A stretch of 37,321 nucleotides of DNA from a virus: positions 1-37,321 of the IMG/VR virus record IMGVR_UViG_3300036398_001090; one strand, given 5' to 3'. The notes beneath the pieces were generated by a model that ran no database searches, was not told where the DNA came from, and saw nothing but the letters and a program-made list of their open reading frames with translations. Made by a program: the position numbers and the translations under genes. This document shows positions 33,579-37,321 of the stretch, in pieces (within the stretch, counting starts at the first letter, position 1; each line of letters begins with the position of its first letter).

Positions 33579-35702
33579 ATGACGACTTTACAAAAGCCTG
33601 TTGACTTCGATGCCGCACGTCTGTTCTTCAAGATCCTAAAAAAGTCCAAGGATGCGATTAGGCTCCGCGCTTTCTATCCCTCAGGTCATCCCTTCAAGGC
33701 AGGCGACTCCGGTCGCAAAGCCGCACCAACTCGCGCCATCGTCGAAGAATGGCAAGCTGAAGGCCGTGGCGTCTATGTCGTCATCAACGATGGCGGCGAC
33801 ACCGACTCCGAGATCACAGCCTGCCGCGCACTGTTCTGCGAATGGGATGATCGCCCGAAGGACTGGCAAGTCACGGCCTGGCAGGAGCTGAACCTCCCAG
33901 AACCCACCATGCAGGTGGACACCGGCGGCAAGTCGATCCACTCCTACTGGATCTTCGACACCGCCATCCCACCTGAGCAGTGGCGATCCCTTCAGAAGCG
34001 CCTCCTCGAGCACGCCGACGCTGATCGAACCCTCAAGAACCCATCCCGTGTGATGCGCCTGCCTGGTACGCATCACATCGGTCCTGATGGCACCGTTGGT
34101 GATCAGGTCTGCATCATCCATCAATCTGATGCTTACTACACCCCGCAGCAGCTTGATGCCTGCCTGCCTGATGAAACGACTCACACCAAACTGATTGAGG
34201 CGCGTCAGTTCACTGATTACAAGCCACACACCCTCATCGACATTCAAGACGCTCTCAACTGCATCCCCGCAGCAGTTCCGAAGCAAGGCCAATATCCCCT
34301 GTTCCGCAATCTCATGTGGGGTCTGATCGAGGCCGTCACCGAAGCCGGTGGATCAATCGATCAGGCCATCACCATGATGCGCCACCATAGTCCAGACTTC
34401 GTTGAAGTCGAGCAGGTCGCGCGCAGCTCCTACAACTCAGTTACTGCTGGCACCTTCTGGTACATCGCCCGTGATAACGGCTGGCGGCCAGCACGAATCG
34501 TGCCGAATGTTGTCGCTGATAATCCATCAACAGCCATCCAAACTTCAGGCCGCAGACTCACCAAAATGGAGGCCGATGAGCTTCTTGTGCAGCTCCGCCA
34601 AGCCAATAACCTTCGCTACAACATCTTCACTCAGCAGATCGAACGCAACGGCAAACTCCTCGAAGGCGCTGAGCATTACTACCTAGAGATCGCAGAAGCC
34701 GGCTGCAAGATCTCAAAGGAGATCGCCCTTGACTGTCTGGTCAAGATCGCCAAGGCCAATCCCTACGACCCTATTCAGGTCTACCTCGATCACGTCGCTG
34801 CTCACATCCAGCCCACTTACATCGATCGCCTCGCATCGACCTACCTGCGGCCTGCTGATGCCAGCAGCCCCGAACCCACCCTCTACGACCACATGCTCCG
34901 CTGCACCCTCATCGCAGCGGTCCGCAGAATCTACGAACCTGGCTCGAAGCACGACAACGCCACCGTGCTCATGGGTGAGCAGGGCGCCCGCAAGTCATCT
35001 TTCTGGGCAGCCATCGGCGGAGAGTTCTTCTCCGATGCCCTTCGGGACATCAGCTCCAAGGACGACATCATGGTCCTGCACCGCTCCTGGATCATGGAGT
35101 GGGCAGAGCTGGATCACATCACAAGCAAGAAGCACGCCGGTCAGGTGAAGGCATTCCTGAGCCAATCCACCGACATGTTCCGCGTGCCTTACGGCAAGGC
35201 CACAGAAGCCTTCCCCAGGCGCTGCATCATCGTTGGCTCCACCAACCGTGACAGCGGCTTCCTGGTTGATGAAACAGGCAACCGACGGTTCTGGGTGATC
35301 CCAGTCACCTGCACCCTGCAGAAGCCCATCGACGTATCCGCCCTCCTCAAGGAGCGGGATGCGATCTGGTCGGCAGCGGTAGCGGCCTACCGCAACGGTG
35401 AATCCAGCGTGCTCACCGCCGAGCAGGAGGCGCAGGTGGCGCAGGAGAACGAGGACTACCTGGTCGAGTCCCCATGGCGGGCACCGATCGAGGCGTGGCT
35501 GGTGGCGCCCCACAACCGATCGAAGAACATCACGACCGACGTGCTGCTGGCCGAGGCCATCGCCAAGCCGATCGAGCGGCAGACACGCTCGGATCAGATG
35601 CAGGTGGCCAGCATCCTGCGGGACCTGAAGTACGACAGGAGGCGCCAACGGATCGATGGCGTTCTCAAATGGGTCTATTTTCGAGACAACAGTGTCGCGT
35701 GA
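33579..35702 (+). CDS. Primase-helicase with VirE/D5-like ATPase domain
   Basis: This 707-residue replication protein joins an N-terminal AEP-type primase-like domain and a C-terminal SF3/VirE helicase. The primase part includes GVYVVINDGGDTDSEITACR, ALFCEWDDRP near 86-95 with acidic residues expected in the active site, GKSIHSYW, and NPSRVMRLPGTHH. Residues around 465-473 (MGEQGARKSS) are the Walker A loop and WIMEWAELD near 504-512 the Walker B region, followed by VPYGKATEAFPRRCIIVGSTN and GNRRFWVIPV. It should unwind and prime the origin; repeats that may be its target lie directly downstream. Confidence 0.93.
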   Translation: MTTLQKPVDFDAARLFFKILKKSKDAIRLRAFYPSGHPFKAGDSGRKAAPTRAIVEEWQAEGRGVYVVINDGGDTDSEITACRALFCEWDDRPKDWQVTAWQELNLPEPTMQVDTGGKSIHSYWIFDTAIPPEQWRSLQKRLLEHADADRTLKNPSRVMRLPGTHHIGPDGTVGDQVCIIHQSDAYYTPQQLDACLPDETTHTKLIEARQFTDYKPHTLIDIQDALNCIPAAVPKQGQYPLFRNLMWGLIEAVTEAGGSIDQAITMMRHHSPDFVEVEQVARSSYNSVTAGTFWYIARDNGWRPARIVPNVVADNPSTAIQTSGRRLTKMEADELLVQLRQANNLRYNIFTQQIERNGKLLEGAEHYYLEIAEAGCKISKEIALDCLVKIAKANPYDPIQVYLDHVAAHIQPTYIDRLASTYLRPADASSPEPTLYDHMLRCTLIAAVRRIYEPGSKHDNATVLMGEQGARKSSFWAAIGGEFFSDALRDISSKDDIMVLHRSWIMEWAELDHITSKKHAGQVKAFLSQSTDMFRVPYGKATEAFPRRCIIVGSTNRDSGFLVDETGNRRFWVIPVTCTLQKPIDVSALLKERDAIWSAAVAAYRNGESSVLTAEQEAQVAQENEDYLVESPWRAPIEAWLVAPHNRSKNITTDVLLAEAIAKPIERQTRSDQMQVASILRDLKYDRRRQRIDGVLKWVYFRDNSVA

Positions 35703-35724
35703 GTCTTGAAATGAGATTAACCAG

Positions 35725-35902
35725 TGTTCCTACCTCATCGGACTAGGTAGGAACATCGAGATCCCGCTTGTTCACACCGTTGTTCCTATGTTCCTACTGT
35801 TCCTACCTTTTTAATAGAGGTATATGAAATAGAGAGTGGGGGGGGTACAGGGACAAAAAGGAAACTCTCTAAGGAAGGTAGGCACGGTAGGAACTAGGAA
35901 CA
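35725..35902. repeat. Iteron-like array of TGTTCCTA repeats, putative replication origin
   Basis: The 267-bp gap after the primase-helicase holds at least seven copies of TGTTCCTA(C). Plus-strand copies start at 35725, 35781, 35789 and 35798; reversed copies lie at 35746-35755, 35886-35894 and 35895-35902. The first and second make a perfect 11-bp inverted repeat (TGTTCCTACCT) with a 9-base centre. Three plus copies are spaced 8-9 bases apart. Between the groups are an A/T-rich stretch (35808-35831) that could melt, an AGAGAGT/ACTCTCT stem (35831-35837 with 35864-35870), and eight G. This looks like an origin or a multi-site operator; no protein-coding sense is apparent. Confidence 0.75.
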
Positions 35903-35969
35903 GCTCCAGTCTCATCCGGCTGCCGCCCCCAACCAGTACGCTGGTGGCTCCACTCCGCTCTCACCGGAC

Positions 35970-37308: not shown

Positions 37309-37321
37309 GGTCGTCCAAACG
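37309..37321. repeat. Right copy of 13-bp terminal direct repeat
   Basis: GGTCGTCCAAACG ends the window and is identical to bases 1-13. See left copy. If it is a cohesive end, terminase would make a staggered cut of about this length here. Confidence 0.75.

Follow-up and report, generated by a model that had tools for sequence, protein, structure and literature searches.

Primase-helicase gene and downstream gap

The window, that is the whole stretch of 37,321 bp (IMG/VR record IMGVR_UViG_3300036398_001090) analysed here, encodes the small and large subunits of a terminase, a portal, a major head protein and tail proteins. Therefore, it represents a phage and not a satellite, which would depend on a helper phage for its particle. 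The record is classed as linear, but since its first 13 bases (1-13) are exactly repeated as its last 13 (37309-37321), it is probably a closed circle. Just ahead of the terminase genes, a ParB-like nuclease domain fused to a DNA methyltransferase is encoded (77-1642).

The features of interest here are a gene encoding a primase-helicase and the gap downstream of it (Table 1). The protein matches the Pfam domain VapE-like_dom (PF05272; 1.7e-66), which meets the criterion for a VapE helicase, and its N terminus (residues 6-196) matches the AEP PrimPol of PDB 6zp9 (E 3.6e-35), which meets the criterion for a fused primase. Homology of the helicase to vapE/PriRep1 of a staphylococcal island (PDB 7pds) is shown by sequence (E 2.5e-25) as well as by fold: an AlphaFold2 (AF2) model of residues 300-707 had 7pds ("PriRep1 with dsDNA") as its best match in the PDB, with a Z score of 27.8 over 371 residues. 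In the AF2 models, the C terminus is a winged helix composed of three helices followed by a two-stranded wing (residues 685-692 and 695-702), with a pLDDT of about 90-98. Taken alone, this domain gave no significant Foldseek match in the PDB; in VIA-align, 7pds tied for the best match with a Z score of 5.9, a value that generic winged helices reach as well. Because the isolated domain gives only such generic matches, its assignment is based on the larger model, together with the covariation described below.

The primase domain ahead of the VapE helicase varies. It is an AEP domain like 6zp9, a Prim-Pol domain (PF09250) with PriCT_2, or Toprim (window 33579-34476, L046, L407); therefore, primases have been swapped on a common helicase.

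Table 1 Features of the primase-helicase gene and of the proposed origin downstream of it
Feature	Position	Strand	Remarks
Primase-helicase, 707 aa	33579..35702	+	AEP primase about 1-196; VapE/SF3-type helicase about 431-627; winged helix about 634-702
Codons of C-terminal winged helix (residues 634-702)	35478..35684	+	From AF2 models
Codon of wing residue R687	35637..35639	+	Covaries with iteron base 6 (K: A/G; R: T/C)
Codon of wing residue R691	35649..35651	+	Covaries with iteron base 1 (R: G)
Codon of wing residue L696	35664..35666	+	Covaries with iteron bases 2-3 (L: TT; Q: TG; R: G at base 2)
Replication origin region (very likely)	35703..35902		3' of initiator stop codon; iteron clustering, conserved layout, skew change
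Iteron 1, left arm of outer palindromic pair	35725..35732	+	Exact TGTTCCTA
Iteron 2, right arm of outer palindromic pair	35748..35755	-	Exact; pair offset of 23-24 bp kept in most close relatives
Iteron 3, left core set	35781..35788	+	Exact; spacing conserved
Iteron 4, left core set	35789..35796	+	Exact
Iteron 5, left core set	35798..35805	+	Exact
Core between iteron sets	35806..35877		A/T-rich part, 8-G run, AAACTCTCTAAGG element; proposed melting/loading site
Degenerate eighth iteron, right core set	35878..35885	-	GTGCCTAC
Iteron 6, right core set	35888..35895	-	AGTTCCTA, 1 mismatch
Iteron 7, right core set	35895..35902	-	Exact TGTTCCTA

It had been predicted from the sequence alone that the gap holds near-identical octamers in two orientations. 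This was confirmed: the octamer TGTTCCTA is present within 35725-35902 in six exact copies and one copy with a single mismatch, and no exact copy is found outside the gap in the window. The commonest 8-mer of the gap occurs six times, compared to a maximum of four in 5000 dinucleotide shuffles. The first iteron starts 22 bp past the stop codon of the primase-helicase gene, as required for a position of the PICI/SaPI type. Other parts of the original prediction held as well, namely a perfect inverted repeat of 11 bp with a centre of 9 bp (35725-35735 and 35745-35755), three tandem copies at successive offsets of 8 and 9 bp, and eight consecutive G (35838-35845). The predicted A/T-rich stretch is present but modest (77% over 30 bp). 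An AGAGAGT/ACTCTCT stem occurs in the window, whereas all 24 close relatives examined lack it; found in only 1 of 25, the stem-loop was dropped as a part of the origin. No match to a known RNA family was found in the gap. De novo motif search by EM was dominated by A/T-rich sequence, so that simpler counts were used instead; a genome-wide DNA search with paired TGTTCCTA returned mostly chance matches.

Conservation of the layout in relatives

Relatives were drawn from IMG/VR, from one cyanobacterial genome bin and from Synechococcus phage S-LBS1. In about 130 of them a repeat array is found at the matching place 3' of the primase-helicase gene, as predicted, and its layout is constant: two opposed sets of repeats surround an A/T- and G-rich core of 70-90 bp. 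Scored blind for this layout, 98 of the 130 relatives obtained 5 or 6, as against none of 130 shuffled gaps. With left (+++) and right (---) sets around a core of 72-82 bp, the requirement of two flanking sets is fulfilled. Close relatives have, in this order, a palindromic pair 23-24 bp apart, two to three rightward copies, the core and two to three leftward copies; the length of the core, its A/T part and the G-run are alike among them, and the A/T maximum is 67-93% over 30 bp; in the lineage of the window itself, the core is only modestly rich in A/T. The prediction that the repeat unit is common to related phages held only in part, since the exact unit is restricted to close relatives. The repeat word differs by lineage, with GTT, TGT, CGT, TTG, CTG, CTT, TTT or TGC followed by C-Y-n-A-C-C; lineages other than that of the window use TGTTCCAACC, TGTCCAACC, CGTCCAACC, TTGCYAACC or TGCYTAACC. 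S-LBS1 has the layout with a different repeat word; the paper describing its genome mentions neither repeats nor an origin.

Of nine further VapE phages or satellites that were inspected, six likewise carry a cluster of repeats immediately 3' of the VapE gene, namely Staphylococcus 3A, Paenibacillus Dante, Corynebacterium Dina, Streptococcus Javan414, satellite Javan257 and Pseudomonas U5. Downstream iterons were not evident in the VapE-type phages Bacteroides BU183P2, Xanthomonas M29 and Burkholderia Mica.

Some additional observations were made on these gaps. In two relatives (L066 and L070), the G-rich/CTCCTATAGG core seems inverted between the iteron sets while the orientation of the flanking iterons is unchanged, as if the core might be able to flip between fixed iterons. 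In the origin-like gap of Staphylococcus phage 3A (L406 4329-4690), AGGGGTATAGGGGTAACCCTCTAAC resembles the G-run and the CTCTCTAAGG element of the cyanophage core, despite the distant hosts. GTCTCA/TGAGAC elements flank the origins in 44 of 130 relatives compared to 17 in shuffles (the copy of the window is at 35909-35914); the element is enriched yet not general, and was rejected as a general origin element. Its function is unknown. The end of the S-LBS1 record (L002 34254-34641) repeats about 130 bp of the origin region, and a mis-assembly of the deposited origin is conceivable.

GC skew

A change in GC skew at the site, which had been suggested as a check of the origin, was indeed found in the window and in relatives. 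The skew rises across the site in all eight long records (the window and seven relatives); in six of them, it is negative before the site and positive after it. With arms of 1.5-4 kb, a rise was seen in 80 of 89 loci and was absent in nine; these loci are related, so that the value of a sign test is not a true probability. The genes on both sides of the site are mostly on one strand and, therefore, gene direction alone fails to explain the skew change of the window. A skew change can also be produced by transcription or gene content.

Covariation of wing residues and iteron bases

The differences in repeat words made it possible to compare them with the protein. Words were called by the pattern NNNCYNACC, which had been learned on the first set of loci; 34 of the 130 loci, in which no word was clear, were excluded. 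Three residues of the wing covary with individual bases of the iteron (Table 1). The rule for residue 687 fits 92 of 93 loci, that for 691 fits 89 of 92 and that for 696 fits 86 of 94. Among 412 alignment columns, 696 ranks first for the word with a normalised mutual information (MI) of 0.64, the next column having 0.34. In a base-by-base scan, 696 was the top column for bases 2-3, 691 for base 1 and 687 for base 6.

The rule for 696 was written down after the first 80 loci, before further relatives were fetched with other queries. They added 51 loci in which the word was clear; the rule was applicable to 49 of these and correct in 44, whereas copying the word from the nearest training relative was correct in only 30 of 51. 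In the 18 cases in which rule and neighbour disagreed, the rule was correct in 14 and the neighbour in none. The five misses are four loci with R and TC words and one with L and TTA; they might reflect a shift of the word by one base. The rules for 691 and 687 were derived from all data, without a held-out set.

Residue and base also change together. In a tree of 189 branches, built from the helicase columns only, changes of residue and base share branches in 16 of 18 cases for 696, 7 of 7 for 691 and 14 of 18 for 687. The covariation of residue and base is independent of ancestry. Judged from the strand register of the model, residues 687, 691 and 696 would share one face of the wing hairpin; coordinates were not inspected. 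In Pseudomonas U5, the word is TGTCCCACC and Arg is present at the places corresponding to 696 and 687; this fits the code by eye, but it is a single, hand-aligned case.

It could be argued that the correlation of residues and words merely reflects linkage, with the gap being exchanged as one block with the adjoining 3' end of the gene. Indeed, the covarying codons are only about 60-90 bp away from the first iteron, and geminiviruses swap such blocks (PMC2974675). However, hitch-hiking should spread the signal over nearby variable residues, but it is confined to three: the signal of 687 for base 6 is 0.73 and that of its neighbours 0.20 or less, the signal of 696 for bases 2-3 is 0.62 and that of its neighbours 0.33 or less, and the signal of 691 for base 1 is likewise restricted to that residue. 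Moreover, each residue pairs with a different base. Since neighbouring residues do not share the signal, we consider mere linkage very unlikely.

Non-coding repeats are also found at packaging (cos/pac) and integration sites. A packaging site is disfavoured by the position of the terminase small subunit (1639-2145), several genes away across the ends of the record, and both roles are disfavoured by the covariation of the repeats with the helicase (covariation with terminase or integrase was outside the comparison). We consider this explanation very unlikely.

Discussion

The gap downstream of the primase-helicase gene is very likely the replication origin of the phage, with the upstream primase-helicase as initiator acting via a winged helix that is proposed to read the iterons. 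Origin activity is inferred. The original prediction of an origin is thus supported by the skew, the layout in relatives and the covariation of residues and bases. Its assumption that the neighbouring VirE/D5-like protein is the initiator is supported as well: the protein is VapE/D5-like and, given that single bases of the repeats covary with residues in the wing of its C-terminal winged helix, it is the likely initiator. Binding data are lacking.

Operators built of repeats occur in phages, and the region divides early replication genes from a tail gene. The repeats could then be operators by which the primase-helicase or a repressor controls its own gene or the downstream late genes, with the origin being elsewhere. 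Against this, no sigma-70-like promoter or terminator was found in the gap (host promoters may differ), the covarying residues are in a winged helix fused to a helicase and not in a dedicated repressor, the GC skew changes at the site, and the layout is that of the proven PICI origins (PMC6092414). Operators in place of an origin are therefore very unlikely; autoregulation alongside origin function remains possible.

How could such an origin work? In our model of an iteron origin, the winged helix of each subunit would bind one iteron of 9 bases. The conserved recognition helix would read the common part C-Y-n-A-C-C, and residues 687, 691 and 696 of the wing hairpin would select the variable bases 6, 1 and 2-3, respectively. 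The predicted target of the C-terminal domain (residues about 625-707) is TGTTCCTACC. The two opposed sets of iterons would load two helicase rings that flank the A/T- and G-rich core; this core would then melt and forks would depart in both directions. Physical binding, loading of two rings, melting of the core and bidirectional replication are all inferred, as there are no binding or replication data for this family.

It is tempting to go one step further. The wing of VapE/PriRep initiators is likely linked to the iterons by a base-by-base code, in which residues 687, 691 and 696 largely set the word and words switch repeatedly by matched changes; phages with the same code letters could then recognise each other's origins. 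If this is true, such phages would be open to cross-replication or replicon interference. Origin specificity would become predictable from the protein sequence and origins could be located in phage genomes without experiment. Natural variation is apparently rich enough to read which initiator residue sees which base, and it becomes directly testable how an initiator and its origin keep matching as each of them changes. In the open-access literature searched (subscription journals were outside the scope), no such code was found for the VapE/PriRep helicase family.

Several known systems can be compared. The second-best fold match, the C-terminal region of the NrS-1 phage primase-polymerase (Z 14.7), is far more distant than 7pds. 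The alpha protein of phage P4 (with its ori/crr repeats) is, as is proposed here, a fused primase and SF3-type helicase with a C-terminal winged helix as origin binder. The geminivirus Rep is a precedent for the comparative reading of initiator-iteron pairs: comparison of its iteron-related domain (IRD) tied particular Rep residues to iteron bases (PMC2974675). However, it is a rolling-circle Rep of plant ssDNA viruses, unrelated in protein and mechanism. Closer is Cch2 of SCCmec, whose isolated C-terminal domain binds the direct repeats of its origin; these repeats lie in the gap that follows the helicase gene on its downstream side (PMC7581432). Unlike the system described here, Cch2 has three AAGTG iterons and no fused AEP primase.

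Most similar are the origins of PICI/SaPI (SaPI1, SaPIbov1, SaPI5, EcCICFT073). They lie directly 3' of the primase-helicase gene (pri-rep), with two iteron sets flanking an A/T-rich region, an arrangement stated to be absent from other known bacterial replicons (PMC6092414). The iteron words vary between elements (PMC6092414), SaPI Rep recognises the iterons directly downstream of its own gene via its C-terminal domain (PMC7581432), and helicase and C-terminal domain are homologous (7pds). In contrast to these islands, the window is a phage of full size that has terminase, portal and head genes of its own, and it shows in addition an outer palindromic iteron pair, a core with a G-run and a code that is readable from natural variation. 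Very likely, the site is an iteron origin of the PICI/SaPI type in a full-size cyanobacterial phage; binding of the iterons by the C-terminal domain and autonomous replication are inferred by us. As far as the papers found describe, this type of origin is new for this phage family. Apparently, this layout, which was called unique to phage-inducible islands, occurs generally across a family of cyanobacterial phages.
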